A program made the position numbers and the translations under genes. A stretch of 44,776 bases of DNA from Bryobacterales bacterium (lineage in GTDB: Bacteria > Acidobacteriota > Terriglobia > Bryobacterales > Bryobacteraceae). Each line of letters opens with the position of its first letter. Position 1 is the first letter of the stretch. Location: the NCBI GenBank assembly GCA_016789925.1, contig JAEUQD010000637.1, positions 1 to 44,776 of the forward strand, written 5' to 3'. The notes beneath the pieces were generated by a model, which searched no databases, was not told the DNA's origin, and saw only the letters and a program-made list of their open reading frames with translations. Shown here piece after piece: positions 22,011 through 38,287 of the stretch.

Positions 22011-22850
22011 CTAGGACTGTTCCTCGATGAGCCGGTAAACGTCGCGCTTGCCAAGCCCATAACGCCGCGCCAACTGCTTCACCGCGTCCATCCGCGCCAC
22101 CCCTTGGCGTAACAGAATCTCCAACTCCCGACGGTAATCAACGGCTTCGGCACTGGTGGACCCGCTCCCTTCGGCGCTGGGACCGATCAGAATCGTGAAT
22201 TCGCCCCTCAGCGAAGGCCTGCCGGCAAGGTCTTGACGTACTTCGGCCGCCGTTCCTCGCACGAACTCTTCGTGCAGCTTGGTGATCTCGCGGGCGGCAA
22301 CTACCGGTCGGTTTGGCCCCAACGTGTTCTCGATTTCGCGCAGCGTCGTCACTACGCGGTGCGGTGCTTCAAAGAGGATTGTGGTTTCTTCGCTCGTGCC
22401 CAATGCGGCGAGCACGGCCTGTCGCCGCCCCGGCTTCGGTGGCAGAAAGCCCAGAAACCGAAACCTGTGCGTCGGCAATCCCGCGGCCGCCAAGGCCGCT
22501 AGCGGTGCTGCGGGACCGGGAACCGGCGTCACAAGGATGTTGGCTTCAATGGCCGCGGCCACCAGCCGGTAGCCAGGATCCGATACGAGCGGGGTCCCTG
22601 CGTCCGTCACTAGTGCCACCGTAGCGCCGGACTTCATCCGCTCCAGCAACTCGGCGGTGCGTTCCTTTTCGTTGTGTTCGTGATAGCTCACCAGCGGCGT
22701 GCTAATCGAATAATGTTCCAATAGCTTTCGCGTCTGCCGCGTGTCCTCGCACGCAATCGCGGACACTTCTTTCAGAACTCTTACGGCGCGAAAGGTGATG
22801 TCCTCGAGATTGCCGATCGGAGTGGCCACGACGTAAAGTTGGCCGGACAT
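22011..22850 (-). CDS. rsmI: 16S rRNA 2'-O-ribose C1402 methyltransferase RsmI
   Basis: RsmI methylates the 2'-hydroxyl of C1402 in the decoding centre of 16S rRNA using S-adenosylmethionine. From the ATG at 22850 the protein has 279 residues. It opens with the family signature SGQLYVVATPIGNLEDITFRA, followed by AIACEDTRQTRKLLEHY, the SAM-pocket motif TDAGTPLVSDPGYRLV and GPAAPLAALAAAGLP. The C-terminal helix-rich tail ends LARRYGLGKRDVYRLIEEQ. An in-frame start 15 codons further upstream exists, but the signature normally lies at the extreme N-terminus. It is divergent from the MPN-like gene across 174 bases. Confidence 0.95.
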   Translation of the reverse strand: MSGQLYVVATPIGNLEDITFRAVRVLKEVSAIACEDTRQTRKLLEHYSISTPLVSYHEHNEKERTAELLERMKSGATVALVTDAGTPLVSDPGYRLVAAAIEANILVTPVPGPAAPLAALAAAGLPTHRFRFLGFLPPKPGRRQAVLAALGTSEETTILFEAPHRVVTTLREIENTLGPNRPVVAAREITKLHEEFVRGTAAEVRQDLAGRPSLRGEFTILIGPSAEGSGSTSAEAVDYRRELEILLRQGVARMDAVKQLARRYGLGKRDVYRLIEEQS

Positions 22851-23024: not shown

Positions 23025-24194
23025 ATGGCGTCTTTCACCGAGTCGTTCCCCGCTTTTCCGCCGAGCCCTGACCGGTTTAGCTGGGAGGTCCCGGGTAAGC
23101 GGGTCGGAGTTCGTCTCGACCTGGATGTTGTCGACCGGATGGAATCCGAGGTCCTGCACAGCTTCGGCGGTAGTGCCAATTTGGGCGCCGAGATCGGCGG
23201 TCTGCTCCTTGGCTCGGTTGTTCCCCATGAACAAGGGTACATAGTTCAGATCACTGACTTTGAACCAGTACCACTCGGCCCTGACCAGTCAGAGTTCACA
23301 CTCCATCGGGATGAGGATTGGGAGCGCTTCGCACAAGCCGCCGATCGCTGGGCTTGGATGCCGGAGAAGCAGACCTATGCGGTCGGGCTGTTTCGCAGCC
23401 ACACGCGTCAAGGCTTGGGCTTGGTCGAGCATGACTATGATCTTTTTCAGCGCTACTTCCCGGACCCGTCGGCCGTCATTCTCCTGGTGAAACCCTTTGC
23501 CACGCGCGCCAGCCTCGCTGGTTTCTTTTTCCGCGAGGAAGGCGGAATTCGGGGCGACTCAAGCTATCTCGAGTTTCCGTTCCGCCGCCGCGAACTCACC
23601 GTGGAATGGGCCGCTCCGCCCGACAGCGCAGACATGGCCGGCACGGCCGTTTTGGAACACGCAGCAGAAGGAATACCCTCCATGGCAACAGCGACGAGTG
23701 TGTTGGGGATCGGGCCTGACAAGGCCGAGCCGATGCCGTCCGATGAGCTCAAGTTCGGACTTCCTACTTCAAAAATCGACGAATCCAGTGGTAAGAGACT
23801 CCGCTCGGGCTGGGTCTGGATCCCCCTGTCCTTTATCTTCCTGCTGCTCGGCGTCGTCCTGGGCTTCCAGGTTGCTCTCAGCGTCCGGTCTCAGGTTCCG
23901 GCTGGTTTCCGCCAGGACCCGTACGCTCTCAATCTCTCCATCAGCCCCGCTGGCGACAGCCTGCATATCCGGTGGGACCGCAACAGCCCGGCTGTCCAGG
24001 CGGCCACTCGCGGCTGGCTCTCCATCCAGGATGGAGCCGGCCAGAAGACGGTCGACCTCGATGTCGCGCAACTCCAGAATGGCAGCGTGATCTATCGGCG
24101 CGCCTCCTCCAGCGTCCGCTTCCGGCTCGAGGTGCTGGCCGGCGGCCGCGTTACGGTCGGCGAGTCCCTCGACTTCCGCTCGGCCACCAAGTAG
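23025..24194 (+). CDS. Membrane-anchored MPN-like protein with degenerate JAMM motif
   Basis: This 389-residue protein is not a family I can name fully. Residues about 28-170 look like an MPN/JAB fold: EIGGLLLGSVV at 56-66 (Glu56), then VGLFRSHTRQGLGLVEHDYD (120-139). The JAMM pattern H-x-H-x7-S-x2-D reads R124-x-H126-x7-V134-x2-D137, so two of the metal and catalytic positions are changed and isopeptidase activity is doubtful. A linker with acidic and Ser-rich stretches follows, then one transmembrane helix (about 262-284) and a C-terminal beta-rich domain (about 300-389, LNLSISPAGDSLHIRWD) that resembles a fibronectin-type fold. The N-terminus should be cytoplasmic and the C-terminal domain periplasmic. 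The ATG at 23025 follows GGGAGCGGG. No partner gene is evident; the AAA+ gene next door is convergent. Confidence 0.75.
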   Translation: MASFTESFPAFPPSPDRFSWEVPGKRVGVRLDLDVVDRMESEVLHSFGGSANLGAEIGGLLLGSVVPHEQGYIVQITDFEPVPLGPDQSEFTLHRDEDWERFAQAADRWAWMPEKQTYAVGLFRSHTRQGLGLVEHDYDLFQRYFPDPSAVILLVKPFATRASLAGFFFREEGGIRGDSSYLEFPFRRRELTVEWAAPPDSADMAGTAVLEHAAEGIPSMATATSVLGIGPDKAEPMPSDELKFGLPTSKIDESSGKRLRSGWVWIPLSFIFLLLGVVLGFQVALSVRSQVPAGFRQDPYALNLSISPAGDSLHIRWDRNSPAVQAATRGWLSIQDGAGQKTVDLDVAQLQNGSVIYRRASSSVRFRLEVLAGGRVTVGESLDFRSATK

Positions 24195-24257: not shown

Positions 24258-25334
24258 TTAGCTCGCCAACCGCAAATCCGGCCGGCGGCGCCGCGCCGCT
24301 TCCCCAATCGGGCGCAGCATCAGACTCGAATCGTCCTCCGACATCTCCACCACGACCGTGCTCCCGGCCTCCAACTCTTCGTTGGCGACCAACACCGCCA
24401 GCGGCTGTGTGAGTTGCCGCTGAATGGTCCGCTTCAGCTCCCGCGCCCCAAACTGTGCGCTGGTTCCCCGTGCCAGCAGGAACTGCTTCGCCTCCTCCTG
24501 AACCCGCAAACGGAACCCGCGCAGTCCCAGGCGCGCGTCGATGTGGCGCTGCAATTCCGCAAGCTGCAAATCCACAATCGACCCTAATGCCGCCTGAGAC
24601 AGCGGCTGGTAGGTCACTACCGCGTCGATCCGGTTCACAAACTCCGGCGCAAACTTTCGCCGCACCGCGGTCATCCCGATCTTCTCCAACTGCCCTTCCA
24701 TCTCGCCTGCGTTTTCCTGCCGGCCCATGCCCTGGAAGCCGAAGCTTGGTTCCATGGCCGTAATCATCTCGCGGGCGCCTAGGTTGCTCGTCATGAAGAT
24801 CAGCGTGCGCTCGAAGCTCACCGTGTTGTTGTCGCCCAGCCGCAGCGTGCCCTTGTCCAGCACACCTAACAGGAGCCGCGTCATCGAGGGCGCCGCCTTT
24901 TCGATTTCGTCGAAGAGCACAATCGCCAGGCTGCTCTTCTCGCTGGTCACCGAGTTCACCCGCGCCTGCGAGAGCATTGGATGCGTCTCGCGATGCCCCA
25001 GGTAGCCAGGAGGCGCCCCAATCAGCTTCGCCACTTCGTGCTCCAACTGGAACTCGCCGCAATCCACCTTCAAGACGTGCTTCTCGCTGCCGTGCAACGC
25101 CGCCGCCAGTGCCTCCACGGTCTTCGTCTTTCCCGTGCCGCTGGGACCCAGCAACAGAAACACCCCAGCCGGACGGCTGTCGGGTGAAAGTCCAGCCTGA
25201 TACATCTGGACGTAGGGCACAATCGCGGACACCGCCGCAGGCTGGCCCACCAACTGGCTAGCCATTGCCTCCTGTAATGTCTCCGCCGCTCCGTCACTGC
25301 GGCGTCGTTGGGAGTTGTTGGTTACCGAACGCAA
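24258..25334 (-). CDS. Stand-alone AAA+ ATPase resembling the second domain of ClpA/ClpB
   Basis: This 358-residue protein contains only one AAA+ module of the Clp class. It has LVGQPAAVSAIVPYVQ near residue 28, Walker A GPSGTGKT (about 64-71), the pore loop GAPPGYLG, Walker B IVLFDEIEKA, sensor 1 TSNLGA, an arginine finger in FVNRID, and a C-terminal D2-small domain with sensor 2 GARELKR. The ClpB N-domain, first ATPase and coiled-coil M-domain are absent, and no ClpP-docking loop is seen. It may therefore be a small unfoldase or a specialised assembly factor. No ATG fits the start: TTG at 25334 is supported by AGGAGG at 25345-25350. It is convergent with the MPN-like gene, and wecB lies upstream on the same strand after 102 bases. 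Confidence 0.82.
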   Translation of the reverse strand: MRSVTNNSQRRRSDGAAETLQEAMASQLVGQPAAVSAIVPYVQMYQAGLSPDSRPAGVFLLLGPSGTGKTKTVEALAAALHGSEKHVLKVDCGEFQLEHEVAKLIGAPPGYLGHRETHPMLSQARVNSVTSEKSSLAIVLFDEIEKAAPSMTRLLLGVLDKGTLRLGDNNTVSFERTLIFMTSNLGAREMITAMEPSFGFQGMGRQENAGEMEGQLEKIGMTAVRRKFAPEFVNRIDAVVTYQPLSQAALGSIVDLQLAELQRHIDARLGLRGFRLRVQEEAKQFLLARGTSAQFGARELKRTIQRQLTQPLAVLVANEELEAGSTVVVEMSEDDSSLMLRPIGEAARRRRPDLRLAS

Positions 25335-29113: not shown

Positions 29114-29209
29114 TCTTAATCTCCCATCTTACTCTCGATTTAACGCCCCAACCAAACAATCCTTGAGCATTTGTCGCCCGTGCGCGCACTCCCTTTCAGG
29201 GGAACTCGC

Positions 29210-32200
29210 ATGCGCGTCACCCTGTCCCTTGTCTTACCGATGTTTTCCGTGGCTCTCGCCGCGCAGCAATTCAGTCTTTCTCCGCCCAATCTACTCCTCC
29301 AGCACGATTCCCTGTCCCACTCCGTCCGTAACTCCGTGACCCTCCCTCCCGGTTACTTTGGCGTGTCGCAAACGGCCACGTCTTCCGCCGTCTTCGTAGC
29401 CGCTTATACAGTCGCGGAAAACAAGTACGATGCCGCGCTGCTTTCGTTTGACGCAAACTCGCTCACCCTCAACTTCAAAGCCTCGTTCCCGCTCCCCGGC
29501 AATCAGTACCCCGCGAGCCTGGCGTCTGCCGCCGATGGTACCTTTACGTTGACGGTCTACTCCGACGCGACCCGGCCGTCCAGCCTTCTCTATCTTCGCC
29601 TCGATGCGCACACAGGCGCCCTGCTCGGAGTCACCCCTTCCGACCCCCAAGGTCTCCCTCTTCCCTCCCTGCTTCCGCTGCCCAACTCACTCCCCGGCGA
29701 ACCATCCCTCGCCGCCGCGAAGATGCTGGAACGTAGAGAAGCCAGTGAGAGTTCCCCCGCGCCACCGTCGGTCACGTTTTGTGTTCCGGCTTCCGACCCA
29801 ACCCCCGCCGACTGCGATACCGTCCTCGCCGAGGACCCCGTCACGCCAGGCGCGCTCGCCGGGCGCACGCCGCTCATCCTAATCCACGACGCCTGGGCCA
29901 CCCCTTCCCTCTCCACACTCGACCGCTCCTATTGGAGTTCGTTGCTCGGCGCATTCGCCGCTACACCCCAGCTCCTCACACGCTATAAGGTATTCCGGTT
30001 TCACTACGTTACTGGTCAGCGCAACGTCTGGGATCTCGCCCGCTCCCTCCGCAACCATCTGGACGCTCTCATCTTCAACCAGCCGGAATACGACACCCAG
30101 TTCACTCTGATCGGCCACGGGCTAGGCGGACTACTGGCGCGGTCCTACATGGATCACCACTGGCATTGGTCCGGACCCGCATCCAGCGTCTGGCGCGCGC
30201 GCCGCGCCGGCGAGCGGGTCCTCTGGGCAATCACCCTGGCCACGCCGCACAACGGCACCCCGCTTTTCACCTCCTCCTCCCTCGCCGCCCAAGGCGTCAC
30301 CGCCGGTTTCTGGAGTGCCAGGGGCTGCCTGAATTGCGCCAACTTGGCCGACTATGCCAATGGTCTTGCAATTTCCCCGGCTTTCGATCACAAGGTGATT
30401 GCCTATTGGGGGTATATCGATACCAATTCCGCCGTCGCGACGCTGGCGCGCGCATCACAGGCGGAGCTCGCCGCCGCGGGCAGCATCGAGGCCTCCGGCA
30501 TCGCGCTCGAACGCTTGCTGACAAACAATCGCAGTCATGCTAACGCCCAATTGTCGCTCGCCAACGATGGCTATATCCCAGGTACGAGCGCCGCTTTCGA
30601 TCTGCGTAGTCCCGCCAAGCGAGTCGCCTGTCCCAATCATGACCATACGCTCATGCTGTATGGCTCCACGGCGCTCTGCTCATCCGGCGTGCCCCTGTTG
30701 AATTCCGTCCTCGCCGACCTCGGAACGCCAAACGGCGCCATCACGCCGTCCACGCCCCCTCCCGTCATGCCCTACACGCCGCCCCCCGGTTGTAGCTACA
30801 CCCTGGCCCCCGCCGCCGCAAGTCATTCGTATAACTCCGCCACCAACGCCGTCACCGTAACCACTACCGCCGGGTGTAGCTGGCATGTTCAGTCTCATGC
30901 TCCCTGGATCTCGATTACCGCCACGTCGGCCAATTCCTTCACGTATCTCATCGAGACCAATGGCGGCGCGTTCCCCCGGTTCGGCCTCGTCTCGGTAGGC
31001 GGCAGTCCTTTCTACATTGCGCAGGACTCCGTCACCGGCGCGTGTGTCTACGACCTCGATCCCAATTTCCGGACCTACTCCAGTTCTGCGATTTCCGGCA
31101 TCATCACGGTCCTGTCACCCTCCAGTTGCTCCTGGACTCCGGCGTCCGATTCCCCTTGGCTATCCGTCTCGACCACGTCACTGCAAACCGGCACGAAGGC
31201 CCTGACGGTCACCGGCTCCTCCAACACGTCGGGCCAGCCGCGCTTCGGGGCTGTCCGCATCACCCCCGCTTCCGGCGCTCCACTCCTCGCGCAGATCGCC
31301 CAGGATGCGTCCGCCTCTCCCTGCTCATACTCCCTTTCCTCGTCCGCCACCCGGATCTCGACCAGCGGCGGCACGGGCTTGTTCGCAATCCAGACCACCG
31401 GTTCCTGCTCATGGTCCGCTGCCGCATCCGATTCCTGGATCGCCCTTTCCTCCAGCGCCTCCGGCACCGGCTCGGCCAACATCTCCTTTTCCATCCAGGC
31501 CAACACTTCGTCGTACCGCCGCTTCGGCACGATAGCGATTCTCGCCGGGAACGTCTCACTGAGCCATCAAATCGCACAGGAAGCCGCTACCGCGCCGGCT
31601 CCTTCCATTAATGTCCCGTCCACTTCCATCTCCTTTGGCAACTCTCTCGTCGACCGTACTACCTACCAAGCCGTCGCGGTCCGCAACACCGGCCAGGGGA
31701 CTCTCTACCCGGCTGGCGTCAACCAGGTCTCCGGCAGCCTCGGCTACCAGGTGGAAACGCCCCTCACTCCCAGTCCCGCGGGGGGATCGGTTTACTTCGT
31801 TCTGTCCTACACTCCGGGTGGCCAGGTATCGCAGAGCGCCATTTTCCGCCTGACCTCCAACGACCCTGCCGAAGGAACCATCGACTTGTCGTTGAGCGGT
31901 ACCGGCATCGGCGCAGCCGCCGGCAACAATCTCATCGTCGCTCCGTCCACCATCAGTTTCGGGGAGGTGCCCACCGGCGTTGTAGCCGAAATCCCGCTCA
32001 CCATTCAGAACCGTGACGTCACGCCTCTCAATCTCACCTATACCTGGACCCAATCGGGCGACTTCCGGGTGCTGAACGCGCCTACCTCACTGGCCGTGAA
32101 CGCCGCCGCAACACTGCGTCTGCGCCTGCTGCCCACCTCCACCGGCGTCAAGTCCGCAACATTCCGGGTGACTTCGAGTGGAACCGGCACACCCTCCTAC

Positions 32201-35200
32201 GACGTCACCATCTCCGCCACGGCGGTTGCGCCGACCGCGGCCAACATTCAAACCGTCCGCACCATTTCGCTCTCCGGTTCGGGTACGCCCGCGCGCCTCA
32301 CCATCCGCTCGGGCCGTGCCTTCATCAGCCGCAACAATCCCGCTGGACTGTCCATCGTCGACCTCGCCGCCGGAGCAGTCTCGGCCAACATCCCCATCAG
32401 CACCTATTCCACCGCTTCCGCCGGCCAACCCGCCGTCGGCGCCGCCCGCGCTTTTGTCCCTCTCTCGAACCTGGGTTCCAACGGTCAGGTCGCCGTCTTC
32501 GACCTCAATACGAATACACTCCAGCAGTACTTCGCGGCGGGAACCGATCCCCATGGCGCCGTTGTTGTCGATAACCAGCTTTGGATATCCAATGCCAATT
32601 GCCCGGCCTCGTCCGGCCTCTCGCTGGTCAGAGCCTTCGACGCCACGACGCTGGTCCCCCAATCCAGCCAACTGGCGGGACGCGTCTCCGCCTGGCTCGC
32701 CGCCGACACCGATACGCGCCGCATTGCCGTCGCAAACACAGGATGTGGCTCGCCCGCACCCGCCGCCGGTGCGTCGTTCATCGACCTCAATTCCAATCTC
32801 CTGCTGCAAACCCGCGACCTCCGGCCATCACCCAACTCGGTCGCCATCGCCGGGGGCAAGGCTTACTTCAATACCGGCCAATCGGTCGAAGTGGTGGACC
32901 TGTCCTCGTTTGCCACCGTCGCTTCCATTCCGATTCCTGAATCCTCCCATGGCATCGCCTCCACCGGCGGCCACGTGTTTACGGCGTCTGGAGGCGTGGT
33001 CACCGTCATCAGCACCGCCACCCATCGCGTGATCGGGACCGTTTCCGTTCCCGGGGCACTTGCGTTGGCCGCGGATACTGCGTCCGCCACGGCATACGCC
33101 GTCACGTCTAATTCCCTCGTGGGAGTCCGGGTTCAGCAGCCTTCCTTCGACTTCTCTTGCGCCGCGCCCGCCCTGTTTGGTCCCTCCACCACCTGCTCCG
33201 TTTCCCCGCTTGACGGGTTCTCTTCCCCAATCAGCCTCACCTGCGCCAGCGTCCCCGGTGTGTCCTGCCTGTGGTCGCCCTCCACGATCGCCGCGCCCGG
33301 GACGGCAACCCTGACCGTCACGCCGTCTTTGCTCTCGCCCGGCCACTATCCGCTCCTGGTGCAAGCGTCCGGGGGCGGCGTCTCCCGGTCCGCCACTCTG
33401 TCCCTCGTGTTGCCGACCTGTTCCTTTACCGTCACCCAGGGAACCCATGGATTCACAGGCGCGGGCGGTTCGAGCTTGGTCGAAGTCCAGTCGCCGGCCG
33501 GTTGCGCCTGGGTCGCGGCCTCGAACGCATCCTGGATCACTATCACGTCCGGCAGCGCGTACTCCGGCAACGGAACTGTCGCCTTTACGGTTGCCGCGAA
33601 TCCGGCGGCATCGGCCCGCAGCGGCACGCTCACGGTGGCCGGGCAGACCATCACCGTGGAACAGCAAGCCGCCGAGTGCAGCTACCAGCTCAATCCGACA
33701 TCAGTCACCGTGGCCGGCACAGGCGGCGCGGGCTCCGTCAGCCTCACCGCCTCCGTGTCCTCCTGCGCCTGGAACGCTGTCTCCAACAATCCTTCCTGGC
33801 TAACCTTGACATCCGCCTCGTCCGGTACTGGCCCCGCGACGGTGGCGTTCTCGTTCACCGCAAATCCGTCCACATCCCTGCGCCAGGGCAGCCTCACCAT
33901 CGGCGGCGTCACCTTTCCGGTCACCCAAAGCGGAGCTTCCTGTACGTTTACGCTCAATCCGGGCAACGCCGGCTTTGGAGCCGCAGCCCAGACTGGAAGC
34001 GTCACCCTCACGGCATCCAGCGCGGGTTGCCAGTGGACCGCCTCCTCCGGCGCACCCTGGCTCAGCATCACGTCGCCCACGTCCGGCACAGGATCATCCA
34101 CTGTTCTATTTAGCGTCGCGGCGAATCCGGAACTTGCCGCCCGCTCGGGCACCCTCACCATTGCCGGCCAGGCCTTTACTGTCAACCAGGACGCCGCCAC
34201 CTGCGCCTTTACCATCAATCCCTCCAGCGCCTCGCTCAACAACCAGGCCAACACCGGTGCGGTATCGGTCACCGCCACCCCAACCGCCTGTAGCTGGACC
34301 GCAACCTCCAACGCCGGTTGGCTGTCGATCCTGTCCGGATCCTCTGGTACTGGGAACGGCTCGGTGAGCTACAGCGTCCCCGCCAACCCCGACGCCACAC
34401 CGCGCAACGCCGTCCTCACCGTGGCTGGACAGGCGTTCCCGGTCACCCAGGCTGGCAGCGACTGTTCCTTTACGCTGTCGCCCACCAGTTCCGCACCATC
34501 CGCCGCTGGCGGGTCCTTCAGCCTCAACGTGCAAACCTCGCATGCGTCCTGCGCGTGGTCGGCCGTCTCCAACTCCCCCTGGATCACCATCTCGTCTCCA
34601 GCCTCCGGAACCGGCAGCGGCACGGTCTCCTACACGGTGGCCGCGAACCCTGGCCTCACCGAACGTATCGGTTTCCTCGTCGCCGGCGGGACTGAGTTTC
34701 GCGTCACCCAGGCCGCCGATACCTGCCGTTTCACTGTGACCCCCCTCAGCCTCTCATTTGACGCCAATACGCATTCCGGCTTCATCGCCGTCAGCGCGTC
34801 CCACAGTGCTTGCACCTGGACGGCTTCCAGTCCGGCGCCCTGGGCCGTCATCACTTCGGGCGAATCCGCCACCGGCAGCGGAAACGTCGCCATCACCGTA
34901 GCGGTCAACAGTACCACCCAGGCGCGAACCGCCAACCTGGCTGTCGCCGGGAACACTGTTCGCGTCGATCAGGACGGCTTGGCTTGCGCCTTTAGCCTCA
35001 GTTCGGAAAGCGCGGCCGTCGATCCGCTCGGTGGAACCCTTTCCGTCAACGTGCTTGCCAACACGAGTGGCTGCCTTTGGACGGCGGCGTCCAATGCCGC
35101 CTGGATTACCGTTGCCGGTGGCTCGGGCTCCGGCAATGGCTCAGCGTCCTTCAGCGTAGCTCCCAATCCGAACCTCGTCGAACGCACGGGCACACTCACC

Positions 35201-38200
35201 ATTGCCGGGCGTACCTTTACCGTCACGCAGGCAGCCCTCGCCTGTGCCATCTCGTTGTCGCCATCATCGCAGTCCGCCTCGCACGCGGCCGGCAGCGGGA
35301 CCCTGTCAATTACGGCAAACCACCCTGGCTGCGCTTGGACCGCCTCCAGCACCCAACCTTGGCTCACCCTCGCTCCGCCCTCCTCCGGGTCGGGATCGAG
35401 CTCGCTCAATTTCTCCTTCACCTCCAACTCCGCTCCCGCCGAGCGGCAGGCCGCCATCAGTGTCTCCGGCCAGAGTTTCGTCCTCACCCAGGCGGCGGCC
35501 CCTTGCACGTACACGCTATCGCCGCAATCCAGCCAAAATGTACCGGCTACGGCCGGCTCTAGCTCGGTTTCGGTTGTGTCCTCCAACTCCGCTTGCTCTT
35601 GGACAGCCACTTCACCGGCCGGCTGGGTCACCATCACTGCCGGCGCTTCCCACACCGGTTCCGGTCCGGTCGGTTATTCCTTCACTGCCAACCCCACCAC
35701 GAATCCCCGCTCGGTAACCCTCACGATAGCCGGCCTCCCGTTTAACGTCGTCCAGGCGGGCGCCTGCTCTCTCACCCTCGCCCCCCCGTCCAATAGCGCT
35801 CCTAACAGCGGCGGGGATTACACTGTGGCCGTGACGGCGTCCAGCGCCGGTTGTGCCTGGACGGCGTCACCATTGCACGACTGGGTCACCCTCATCTCCC
35901 CTGCGGCCGGTGCCGGAAATGGCACTGTCAGCTACCGCGTCGCCGCCAACCCTGGTGCGGCGTCCCGGACCTCCCACCTCACCGTCGGCGACCAGTTACA
36001 TACCATCGTGCAGGCCCCGGCTAGCTGCGTATTCTCGCTACCATCCGGCGGCGCGTCCTTCAGCGCACCGGCCACGACCGGAAGTTTCTCCCTGAGCGCC
36101 TCCGGCGCCTCCTGCCCGTGGACAGCCGCGAGCAGCGCAGGCTGGATCACGTTAACATCACCTGCCTCGGGGACCGGCGGTGCCACAATCTCCTTCTCTC
36201 TCACCGCAAACCCCGACACCACAGCGCGCACCGGTTCCATCACTGCGGGCGGGCAGTCTTATAGCATCACGCAGGGTGGCGCAAACTGCTCCTTCACCCT
36301 GGCGCCTTCCAGCCAGTCCTTCGGCGCGGAAGCCGCCACCGGAAGCGTCGTGCTCAGCGCGGGCTCTTCCTCCTGCCCGTGGACCGCTACTTCCAACGCA
36401 CCCTGGATTACGTTGACCTCCGCGCCTTCGGGAGCCGGCAGCGGCTCAGTCTCTTTCTCGGTGGCCGCCAACACCGATCTCCAGCCACGCTCCGGGACCA
36501 TCTCCATCGCCGGCCAGACATTCCAGATCGCCCAGACCGCCGCCGCGTGTAGCTACTCGATTCAACCCGCCAGCGGCTCCTATCCTCCCGCCGGGGGAAC
36601 CTTTACGGTGAATGTCTCCACCTCCCCGGCGAGTTGCCCCTGGACGGCTTCCACCCCCACGCCCTGGATTTCCGTCACATCCGGCGCAAGCGGCGCCGGA
36701 CCCGGCTCGGTCGGGTTCTCTCTCGGCATCAACACCGCTCCCGCCCCCCGTTCCGGCTTGCTCACAATTGCCGGAAAGACATTCCACGTCACCCAACAGG
36801 GCGTTAACTGTCAGTTCACGGTGACGCCACTGCTCTTACAGCACTCTTCGGGAGGCGGCTCCGGCTCTATCGATGTCAACGCCAGCAGCCCCTCCTGCTC
36901 CTGGTCGGCCGTCGCAAACGATAATTGGATCTCGTTGACTCCGCCGCTCTCCGGAATTGGCTCCGCCAGTATCGCGTACACCATTGCCAGCTACTCCGGA
37001 CTCTCGGGGCGAAGTGGTTCCCTTAGCGTCGCCGGCTCCACCATCAGCGTGAATCAGTCCGGAGTGCAGTGTGGGCTCACGCTCTCCGACGACACCGCCT
37101 ATGCCGGCGCGGGCGGTGTCTCTCAAACCGTTCAGCTCACCCTGACGCACGGCGCTTGCCCGTGGACGGCCGCCAGCGATGCAAGCTGGTTAACCATTAC
37201 CTCCGCCTCCAGCGGAACTGGGTCGAGTTCCCTCGACTTCTCCGTCGCGCCGTTGCCCTCGCAAGGCGCCCGCACCGCCCACCTCACCATCAATGGCGAG
37301 ACCTTGACCGTCGACCAGTTCGGCATCTCACAGCCCGGCCGTACACCGACTGCTGTCTTCCGCCACACCTCTGGAGGAATCGCCGTAGCCTCCTATGCTT
37401 CCTCTTCCTTCAAACTGAACGGGGGGGTCTTCGGCGGTGAACCCGCCTCCGCGCAAGACTCTCTCGGCAATACTTACTTTGCCTCTCTCGACCGGCACGG
37501 CGGCGCATACGCGAATACTTTCCTGGCGGCGTCGAGTTCCTGGGCGCAGTTGCGTTTCGGTGGCGGTAATTTCCAGGGCGATTTGAGTCTTACGGTCACT
37601 CCCAACGGCACGGTCTTCGTAGCCGGCCGCGACCGCTGGCGGGGCTACTGGGCAACCACGTTCAGCACGGCGGGCGGCTTTGCGCCCTGGACCAGGCTCG
37701 GCGGCGTCTTCGACACCGATCCCTCGATTGCCGCCTCCCCCGACGGTTCGGTTTACGTCGTTGGGCGTGACACCTGGGGCGGCCTCTGGGCCAATCGGTT
37801 CGTACCGGATTCCGGCTGGCAAGGCTGGACTTTCGGCGGCGGCGTAGTCAGCGGCAAGCCCTCCGTCGCGGTCGGAACCGATGGCGTCGCCTACGTCGCC
37901 GTCCGCGACTATTTCGGCAGTGTGTGGATGGCGCGCCTGCGCCACCGGCGCTGGCTCAATTGGTCCTTCGGAGCCGGCAGCGGTCTCTCCAGCGACCCCA
38001 CAATCGTCGCTAACGGCACGGGCACCGTCTACGTGGTAGTCCGAACTTTTGGCGGTAGCGTCTATTACCGTGGCTTCACCGAAGGCACGCCCGCGGGCTG
38101 GCATCCCTGGGTGGATGCCGGCGGCGTGCTGGCAGTCGCCTCGGCGGCCGGCTCCTCCGGTGAGCTCTACGTCTTCGGACGCGATCCCACGGGCAACCAT

Positions 38201-38287
38201 TGGTGGTTCCGCGCCGGGACCTCGCAATGGACTAACGTCGGCAACCGGAACTATTCGGTCACCGGGCCGGCGGCATCTCCCCGATGA
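29210..38287 (+). CDS. Giant secreted multidomain protein with pseudo-lipase, 18 BACON repeats and propellers
   Basis: A single 9078-base frame encodes about 3025 residues. The ATG at 29210 follows AGGGGAA and starts a signal peptide (MRVTLSLVLPMFSVALAAQQ). In order: an N-terminal beta-rich region (about 20-210); an alpha/beta-hydrolase domain (about 214-500) with TPLILIHDAW and TLATPHNGTP, in which the nucleophile elbow reads GHGLGG so Gly304 replaces the Ser; three BACON-like repeats (528-793); two ASH/Ig-like domains (801-1007); a YVTN-like propeller (about 1010-1313); an Ig-like domain; 15 tandem BACON repeats (1404-2708); and a C-terminal propeller of about 317 residues. No membrane anchor, LPXTG or type IX sorting signal is visible. 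It is probably a surface or extracellular glycan- or protein-binding scaffold. It has no operon partners. Confidence 0.9.
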   Translation: MRVTLSLVLPMFSVALAAQQFSLSPPNLLLQHDSLSHSVRNSVTLPPGYFGVSQTATSSAVFVAAYTVAENKYDAALLSFDANSLTLNFKASFPLPGNQYPASLASAADGTFTLTVYSDATRPSSLLYLRLDAHTGALLGVTPSDPQGLPLPSLLPLPNSLPGEPSLAAAKMLERREASESSPAPPSVTFCVPASDPTPADCDTVLAEDPVTPGALAGRTPLILIHDAWATPSLSTLDRSYWSSLLGAFAATPQLLTRYKVFRFHYVTGQRNVWDLARSLRNHLDALIFNQPEYDTQFTLIGHGLGGLLARSYMDHHWHWSGPASSVWRARRAGERVLWAITLATPHNGTPLFTSSSLAAQGVTAGFWSARGCLNCANLADYANGLAISPAFDHKVIAYWGYIDTNSAVATLARASQAELAAAGSIEASGIALERLLTNNRSHANAQLSLANDGYIPGTSAAFDLRSPAKRVACPNHDHTLMLYGSTALCSSGVPLLNSVLADLGTPNGAITPSTPPPVMPYTPPPGCSYTLAPAAASHSYNSATNAVTVTTTAGCSWHVQSHAPWISITATSANSFTYLIETNGGAFPRFGLVSVGGSPFYIAQDSVTGACVYDLDPNFRTYSSSAISGIITVLSPSSCSWTPASDSPWLSVSTTSLQTGTKALTVTGSSNTSGQPRFGAVRITPASGAPLLAQIAQDASASPCSYSLSSSATRISTSGGTGLFAIQTTGSCSWSAAASDSWIALSSSASGTGSANISFSIQANTSSYRRFGTIAILAGNVSLSHQIAQEAATAPAPSINVPSTSISFGNSLVDRTTYQAVAVRNTGQGTLYPAGVNQVSGSLGYQVETPLTPSPAGGSVYFVLSYTPGGQVSQSAIFRLTSNDPAEGTIDLSLSGTGIGAAAGNNLIVAPSTISFGEVPTGVVAEIPLTIQNRDVTPLNLTYTWTQSGDFRVLNAPTSLAVNAAATLRLRLLPTSTGVKSATFRVTSSGTGTPSYDVTISATAVAPTAANIQTVRTISLSGSGTPARLTIRSGRAFISRNNPAGLSIVDLAAGAVSANIPISTYSTASAGQPAVGAARAFVPLSNLGSNGQVAVFDLNTNTLQQYFAAGTDPHGAVVVDNQLWISNANCPASSGLSLVRAFDATTLVPQSSQLAGRVSAWLAADTDTRRIAVANTGCGSPAPAAGASFIDLNSNLLLQTRDLRPSPNSVAIAGGKAYFNTGQSVEVVDLSSFATVASIPIPESSHGIASTGGHVFTASGGVVTVISTATHRVIGTVSVPGALALAADTASATAYAVTSNSLVGVRVQQPSFDFSCAAPALFGPSTTCSVSPLDGFSSPISLTCASVPGVSCLWSPSTIAAPGTATLTVTPSLLSPGHYPLLVQASGGGVSRSATLSLVLPTCSFTVTQGTHGFTGAGGSSLVEVQSPAGCAWVAASNASWITITSGSAYSGNGTVAFTVAANPAASARSGTLTVAGQTITVEQQAAECSYQLNPTSVTVAGTGGAGSVSLTASVSSCAWNAVSNNPSWLTLTSASSGTGPATVAFSFTANPSTSLRQGSLTIGGVTFPVTQSGASCTFTLNPGNAGFGAAAQTGSVTLTASSAGCQWTASSGAPWLSITSPTSGTGSSTVLFSVAANPELAARSGTLTIAGQAFTVNQDAATCAFTINPSSASLNNQANTGAVSVTATPTACSWTATSNAGWLSILSGSSGTGNGSVSYSVPANPDATPRNAVLTVAGQAFPVTQAGSDCSFTLSPTSSAPSAAGGSFSLNVQTSHASCAWSAVSNSPWITISSPASGTGSGTVSYTVAANPGLTERIGFLVAGGTEFRVTQAADTCRFTVTPLSLSFDANTHSGFIAVSASHSACTWTASSPAPWAVITSGESATGSGNVAITVAVNSTTQARTANLAVAGNTVRVDQDGLACAFSLSSESAAVDPLGGTLSVNVLANTSGCLWTAASNAAWITVAGGSGSGNGSASFSVAPNPNLVERTGTLTIAGRTFTVTQAALACAISLSPSSQSASHAAGSGTLSITANHPGCAWTASSTQPWLTLAPPSSGSGSSSLNFSFTSNSAPAERQAAISVSGQSFVLTQAAAPCTYTLSPQSSQNVPATAGSSSVSVVSSNSACSWTATSPAGWVTITAGASHTGSGPVGYSFTANPTTNPRSVTLTIAGLPFNVVQAGACSLTLAPPSNSAPNSGGDYTVAVTASSAGCAWTASPLHDWVTLISPAAGAGNGTVSYRVAANPGAASRTSHLTVGDQLHTIVQAPASCVFSLPSGGASFSAPATTGSFSLSASGASCPWTAASSAGWITLTSPASGTGGATISFSLTANPDTTARTGSITAGGQSYSITQGGANCSFTLAPSSQSFGAEAATGSVVLSAGSSSCPWTATSNAPWITLTSAPSGAGSGSVSFSVAANTDLQPRSGTISIAGQTFQIAQTAAACSYSIQPASGSYPPAGGTFTVNVSTSPASCPWTASTPTPWISVTSGASGAGPGSVGFSLGINTAPAPRSGLLTIAGKTFHVTQQGVNCQFTVTPLLLQHSSGGGSGSIDVNASSPSCSWSAVANDNWISLTPPLSGIGSASIAYTIASYSGLSGRSGSLSVAGSTISVNQSGVQCGLTLSDDTAYAGAGGVSQTVQLTLTHGACPWTAASDASWLTITSASSGTGSSSLDFSVAPLPSQGARTAHLTINGETLTVDQFGISQPGRTPTAVFRHTSGGIAVASYASSSFKLNGGVFGGEPASAQDSLGNTYFASLDRHGGAYANTFLAASSSWAQLRFGGGNFQGDLSLTVTPNGTVFVAGRDRWRGYWATTFSTAGGFAPWTRLGGVFDTDPSIAASPDGSVYVVGRDTWGGLWANRFVPDSGWQGWTFGGGVVSGKPSVAVGTDGVAYVAVRDYFGSVWMARLRHRRWLNWSFGAGSGLSSDPTIVANGTGTVYVVVRTFGGSVYYRGFTEGTPAGWHPWVDAGGVLAVASAAGSSGELYVFGRDPTGNHWWFRAGTSQWTNVGNRNYSVTGPAASPR
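30791..31588 (+). repeat. First BACON block (three divergent repeats)
   Basis: Three repeats of about 85-90 residues begin with CSYTL, CVYDL and CSYSL. Each has a second Cys in a C-x-W motif (CSWHV, CSWTP, CSWSA) and ends in an IAQ-like strand. They are more divergent from each other than those of the main array. BACON domains are usually carbohydrate- or mucin-associated. Confidence 0.85.
33419..37333 (+). repeat. Main BACON array (15 tandem repeats)
   Basis: Fifteen repeats of about 87 residues (261 bases) lie head to tail. The consensus starts C-[FY]-T-L-x-P, has a second Cys in C-x-W-T-A, then W-[IL]-T-[IL]-T-S, SGTGxGxVxFSVAANP, RSGTLTIAGQTFTVTQ. All 15, like the three in the first block, keep both Cys residues, which predicts a disulfide in every repeat. 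Repeats are clearly diverged at DNA level, so the array is old rather than a recent amplification. Confidence 0.9.
37334..38284 (+). other. C-terminal lectin-like propeller domain of the giant protein
   Basis: About 317 residues start at GRTPTAVFRHTSGG and contain six to seven repeats of the type YVVGRDTWGGLWANRF. The pattern resembles PLL-type seven-bladed lectin propellers or related tachylectin-like folds; the exact family is not certain. The same domain is present at the C-terminus of the sugar dehydrogenase at 19961-21985. Confidence 0.75.

Follow-up and report, generated by a model that had tools for sequence, protein, structure and literature searches.

A bacterial membrane-anchored protein with a predicted MPN fold and a degenerate JAMM metal site

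What becomes of an MPN domain that has lost the first zinc ligand of its JAMM site and is tied to a bacterial membrane? The question is raised by a gene in the window, which here means the whole stretch of 44,776 nucleotides that was analysed, from a soil bacterium of the Bryobacterales (Acidobacteriota). It forms a single contig in an assembly of 6.9 Mb, which consists of 1051 contigs and is 87.6% complete. The open frame of the gene reaches upstream to 22902, and the start was placed at the Met at 23025 because the homologues align from there. The gene and the parts of its MPN domain are as follows.

23025-24194 (stop codon 24192-24194), forward strand: coding sequence of the membrane-anchored MPN− protein, 389 residues
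23067-23609, forward strand: MPN domain, residues 15-195, predicted to be cytoplasmic (AlphaFold2, Foldseek/VIA and profile matches)
23190-23192, forward strand: Glu56, which corresponds to the catalytic Glu of JAMM proteins and does not vary in the homologues
23394-23435, forward strand: degenerate JAMM motif R124-S-H126-T-R128-x5-V134-x2-D137 (sequence and homologue alignment)

Residues 124-137 read R-S-H-T-R-Q-G-L-G-L-V-E-H-D and fill exactly 23394-23435, with the codon of R124 at 23394-23396 and that of D137 at 23433-23435. Glu56 stands in the context E-I-G-G (E-x-G-G). A preliminary description had read R-x-H-x7-V-x2-D at this place together with a retained Glu56, and had taken the JAMM metal site to be lost from an MPN protein; the motif is present exactly as described.

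Taken alone, the window protein matched 0 Pfam families, so it lies below the JAB and Prok-JAB cut-offs, and no TonB_C was found in it. Single-sequence searches of PDB, NCBIfam and PADLOC likewise returned no family. Profiles of homologues did match MPN chains in the PDB. A profile of nine homologues found the archaeal Rpn11-like 6fjv (E 2.3e-8) and CSN5 (E 1e-3) over profile positions 48-158. Since one of the nine rows had an intact motif, the search was redone with 28 homologues that all carry Arg124, and 6fjv was found again (E 1.3e-4). An AlphaFold2 model based on 108 homologues has a pLDDT mostly above 90 for residues 21-190; further on, residues 265-286 form a helix, beyond which lies a beta domain. 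The top Foldseek match of this model was zinc-bound Rpn11 (E 1.5e-6), with 62 matches at E<=0.001, and VIA superposed it on 6fno over 143 residues (Z 13.2, rmsd 3.2). The structural matches comprised Rpn11, BRCC36 and CSN5 and the inactive MPN chains 4qft (CSN6), 3j8b (eIF3) and 8s9s (EMC). Judged from the model and the profiles, the predicted MPN fold is more than a chance resemblance.

Next, we asked how constant the loss is. Among the 108 homologues, position 124 is Arg in 106 and Val or Leu in one each, and it is never His, so that in the clade of the window protein the first zinc ligand has been lost for good. Glu56 and Asp137 are both kept in 108/108. Position 126 is His in 83, Asn in 19 and Thr, Gln or Arg in two each, and it is followed by T127 in 103 and R128 in 104. 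Position 134 varies (26 Ser, 26 Ala, 24 Thr, 17 Gly, also Asp, Val and others). Thus, the degenerate motif proved constant at Arg124, and the change from Ser to Val134, which had been counted as part of the degeneration, was not upheld, as Ser occurs in only 26 of the homologues and the position is unconstrained. The alignment contains near-copies: 106 of its rows are distinct, and filtering at 95% identity left 87, in which the picture of the motif was unchanged. Matches were ordered by their resemblance to the window protein, and this order favours the R-type; the scan patterns did not contain the motif. The homologue scan covered 80 loci, nearly all of them in Bryobacterales metagenome assemblies; one genome among them, that of Bryobacterales bacterium F-183, is nearly complete. 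Five of these loci (L107, L110, L115, L139 and L151) gave split or partial matches and lie outside the 108 rows, and their motif was counted separately. The homologues diverge down to about 35% identity while their synteny is conserved.

The retention of Glu56 and Asp137 invites two readings. One is that Glu56, His126 and Asp137 now serve a different chemistry or hold a different metal. The invariance of the acidic pair, with T127 and R128 nearly so, exceeds what a pure scaffold would need and speaks for such a non-zinc enzyme. However, 25 of the 108 homologues have Asn, Thr, Gln or Arg in place of His126 and the Ser is unconstrained, and Thr127-Arg128 is shared with intact paralogues and so need not mark a new site. 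We regard this reading as very unlikely. The other is that Arg124 takes the place of the zinc. In 195 non-redundant MPN domains, the rows with Arg124 have Asp137 in 104/104 and His126 in 78/104, and the rows with V, I, L, A or C at 124 have His126 in 29/30 and Asp137 in 23/30; these domains are related, so Fisher p values overstate the covariation. This pattern of retention fits a contact of Arg124 with the acidic pair. From the aligned sequences we infer that Arg124 probably occupies the place left by the metal and would bridge Glu56 and Asp137 by salt bridges.

The remainder of the protein was examined in the same model and alignment.

23610-23810, forward strand: linker, residues 196-262, poorly conserved (low pLDDT)
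23817-23882, forward strand: transmembrane helix, residues 265-286, the best conserved part (AlphaFold2, hydropathy, conservation)
23850-23864, forward strand: G276-x3-G280 motif in the membrane helix (Gly276 in 83/87 and Gly280 in 85/87 non-redundant homologues)
23913-24191, forward strand: FN3-like beta-sandwich, residues 297-389, predicted to be periplasmic (AlphaFold2, Foldseek, VIA)

The single membrane helix of the preliminary description was recovered in the model, and hydropathy agrees with it (best 19-residue Kyte-Doolittle mean 2.35). Mean conservation is 0.70 in this helix, 0.60 in the MPN domain, 0.53 in the FN3-like domain and 0.27 in the linker. The beta domain described after the helix was also reproduced, with a pLDDT of 93.5 when it was modelled alone by AlphaFold2. 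Its model matched FN3 folds such as monobodies and fibronectin (Foldseek E 3.6e-4, probability 1.00; VIA Z up to 10.4), and a profile of its sequence found no FN3 chain at E<=1, nor did Pfam name it in the window protein. By its modelled structure, the C-terminal domain is an FN3-like fold. In a sister clade, called B below, the protein runs on into a TonB_C domain (Pfam in L157, E 3e-18), which in TonB is periplasmic. This supports, by analogy, a topology with the N-terminus inside and the C-terminus outside.

The protein belongs to an unnamed family of membrane-bound MPN proteins that is nearly universal in one bacterial family and has multiplied in one acidobacterial lineage. The nine-member profile matched 148/150 genomes of the same bacterial family, with 1 to 11 matches per genome, and 21/396 genomes across the phylum, where many of the matches are ordinary JAMM proteins. 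Four kinds of members were read. Class A is the window type. Class B is R-type with a C-terminal TonB_C, which was confirmed by Pfam in L157; in the other members it was recognised by eye or with the help of a loose pattern. In class C the motif is complete (E...HSHTR...S..D) and the tail is coiled-coil-like, and class D has a degenerate motif and a different C-terminal stretch. The class B loci L154-L160 combine pseudo-MPN domain, membrane helix, FN3-like region and TonB_C in one protein, except that the contig of L160 ends before TonB_C. Six other loci (L161, L162, L164, L165, L168 and L169) share a C-terminal stretch that reads, by eye, about WTG.LP.G..L...GR..S.G, and this stretch has no Pfam name in the three that were scanned (L162, L164 and L165). 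A literature search, with most subscription papers outside its scope and a publication therefore possible, found no description of the family, and JAB, Mov34 and MPN do not occur as whole words in the accessible part of PMC3174227.

The full HxH...S..D, absent from the orthologous clade (His124 in 0/108), is present in paralogues: the best match to an intact paralogue (P0002) has E-H-H-S-D in 43/87 genomes read. Therefore, the motif is degenerate in particular clades only. For a careful tree, a sample of 62 MPN domains was drawn, with L218, L253 and L260 excluded from its class A part, and the motif columns were removed. In this tree, A and B form an R-clade (support 100/100), with B inside it (100/100). 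When rooted on ordinary JAMM proteins, the R-clade is nested among paralogues with intact motifs; support for the nearest intact group is moderate (88/80), and no branch has the outgroup as one of its sides. A quick tree gave the same clade from 197 rows, namely those with at least 120 residues among the 206 MPN rows in which neither key column is empty. Since the R-clade lies among intact paralogues in the rooted tree, the window protein is most likely a derived MPN− pseudoenzyme from MPN+ ancestors. JAMM proteins with a complete HxHP...S..D and, by eye, a C-terminal hydrophobic helix were noticed in other families of the phylum (L022 and L025); the membrane plan may have arisen from proteins like these.

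Within the family, the first His has probably disappeared several times, to judge from the paralogues, in which it is replaced by R, by V, I or L, or by others. Such repeated loss could be expected if the gene were a relic, that is, one of a set of lineage-specific duplicates drifting after loss of function. However, eight residues (E56, G58, G59, G63, G121, D137, W317 and L332) are invariant in the 108 sequences, conservation is higher in the membrane helix than in the fold and the synteny is stable. A relic is thus a most improbable explanation.

Another possible explanation is that the window protein supports an intact paralogue of the HSHTR type in an MPN−/MPN+ membrane heterodimer, as Abraxas/KIAA0157 does for BRCC36. 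Pairs of MPN+ and MPN− proteins are well described in eukaryotes, according to PMC4579573. Intact paralogues with the same plan of MPN domain, linker, membrane helix and beta domain occur in the same bacterial family, and one of them (L163 in genome G448) comes from the genus of the window. All seven class B genomes read have HxH in the best paralogue match and six of them have the full motif, which makes a partnership more credible for B than for proteins like that of the window. The preliminary description had noted that inactive MPN proteins often serve as scaffolds or recognition partners for active ones, and the distribution of the genes does not support such a role for the window protein. 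The full motif was found in the best paralogue match of 9/26 examined R-type genomes vs 34/61 others (Fisher p 0.10), and with Thr or Cys allowed for Ser the counts were 11/26 vs 41/61 (p 0.035); R-type was defined by our own cut of E<=1e-50, and the counts use one best match from each genome and leave aside another 26 R-type genomes. The one-contig genome G492 has an R-type gene and no match to an intact paralogue at E<=1e-20. Also, each of 20 scanned paralogue stretches contained one gene of the family, so the classes are not neighbours there. Such a heterodimer is, for the window protein, unlikely.

The genome of the window was also searched for an active JAMM and a ubiquitin-like gene, and an ordinary JAMM that looks active and a ubiquitin-like gene were found on another contig, C675 (L262:2419-5261). 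There, a Prok-JAB peptidase clusters with a ThiS/MoaD-like protein, an E1-rhodanese and a cysteine synthase; the cysteine synthase, the rhodanese and the comparison with CysO were assigned by eye. This operon type of cysteine synthase, Ubl and JAMM is tabulated in Iyer et al. 2006 (PMC1779556). The cluster has no evident link to the window protein.

The genes on either side of the MPN gene were then compared across the loci.

22011-22850, reverse strand: rsmI-like methyltransferase gene, divergent neighbour (PF00590; synteny in 67/80 loci)
24258-25334, reverse strand: stand-alone ClpB-D2-like AAA+ ATPase gene, convergent (AAA_2 and ClpB_D2-small)

The product of the first, a PF00590 methyltransferase, we take to be RsmI. 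Its divergent gene adjoins the MPN gene in 67 of the 80 loci, with 14-389 bases between the two matches. This conserved pair could point to a housekeeping role linked to rsmI or to translation. However, divergent pairs can persist through shared ancestry, the adjacency is absent in 13/80 loci and the neighbours vary in the other paralogue classes read, so we consider this role hardly probable. The two class C loci with listed neighbours (L163 and L166) do not lie beside rsmI. We also weighed a partnership with the AAA+ neighbour and rejected it, as just 19/80 loci have that gene within 3 kb downstream. An anti-phage defence context was also dropped; PADLOC gave no match for the window protein and only weak JAB matches (E about 0.01) for the intact paralogue. 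As to a phage origin, Foldseek against viral proteins gave four matches at E<=0.001, of which the best reached 6.2e-5, and the superposition was poor; the stable synteny with rsmI stands against such an origin. No neighbour, fusion or co-occurrence points to a ligand or partner of the window protein. Elsewhere in the window, a 3038-residue open frame (29171-38287, forward strand) has 12 PF13004 and 13 PF19190 stretches, which amount to about a dozen BACON domains, and an ASH/HYDIN-type domain; it is probably a giant surface repeat protein.

Our preferred explanation, to which we give about an even chance, is that the window protein is a bitopic inner-membrane MPN− pseudoenzyme, with a lost first zinc ligand, a G-x3-G helix and an FN3-like domain, that acts as an adaptor or receptor. 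Its MPN domain would lie in the cytoplasm and descend from a membrane-bound JAMM ancestor in which the first zinc ligand changed from His to Arg while Glu56 and Asp137 were kept. The protein may associate with itself, or pair with a paralogue, through its membrane helix. The FN3 domain would bind a ligand or partner in the envelope, and the metal-free MPN domain, as a module that binds a protein or a peptide tail, would relay this binding into the cell. A transmembrane adaptor or receptor role, worded as a signalling adaptor in the preliminary description, may reasonably be inferred. A bolder version would see in these proteins a Bryobacterales receptor family derived from a deubiquitinase-type fold, in which Arg124 is a plug, the groove binds a Ubl or peptide tail uncut, the G-x3-G helix couples it to the periplasmic FN3 domain and, in class B, to TonB_C, and the intact paralogues cleave. 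We think this version quite unlikely.

Compared with JAMM/MPN+ proteins (Rpn11, BRCC36, CSN5 and AMSH; 6fjv/6fno), the window protein has in common the MPN fold, the invariant Glu and the Asp of the motif. Unlike them, it has Arg for the first zinc His, a second His and a Ser that are not fixed, a membrane anchor and an FN3-like domain. By its sequence, with both H-x-H and S-x2-D incomplete, it is placed in the inactive branch of the MPN fold and outside the JAMM metalloproteases. Abraxas/KIAA0157, Rpn8, CSN6, eIF3 subunits and EMC8/9 are MPN− pseudo-DUBs that have also kept the fold and lost metal ligands; in contrast to them, the window protein is bacterial, crosses the membrane once and has a second domain beyond it, and no active partner was found for it. 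Loss of the metal ligands is general among MPN− proteins, according to PMC4579573. Bacterial Prok-JAB proteins (PF14464) of Ubl/cysteine-synthase operons, such as the one on contig C675, have the MPN domain in common with the window protein but differ in that they lack a membrane helix, have the full HSHP...S..D and adjoin Ubl and E1 genes. Closer are the intact Bryobacterales paralogues of the HSHTR type (L163, L166 and L181), which share the whole membrane plan and the T-R after the second His, and differ in their complete E, HxH, S and D and in the coiled-coil-like C-terminal stretch. Relative to proteins with a TonB/TolA-type C-terminal domain, class B has TonB_C after the FN3-like region, whereas the window protein ends after its FN3-like domain.

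Inactive MPN proteins are already well known from eukaryotic complexes. A large bacterial family that mixes intact and broken membrane MPN proteins, and in which the same zinc ligand has gone repeatedly, offers a natural series for the role of the MPN fold after cutting stops, and it lets one ask whether bacteria use this fold for signalling across the membrane. Pfam misses the window protein, a member of a nearly universal family of an acidobacterial lineage.

Further observations concern the assemblies. In the genome of the window (G000), a class D paralogue (C903:7569-8557) is cut by the contig end, and the end of another contig (C486:1-4159) overlaps and extends it; since C486 shares and continues this sequence, the two contigs probably belong together. 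The Bryobacterales pair of rsmI and MPN genes is also carried by L124 (CALQCC020000010.1), which is titled Bordetella parapertussis, and by L077 (VFZE01000002.1), which is titled Acidimicrobiia; both are likely mislabelled assemblies.
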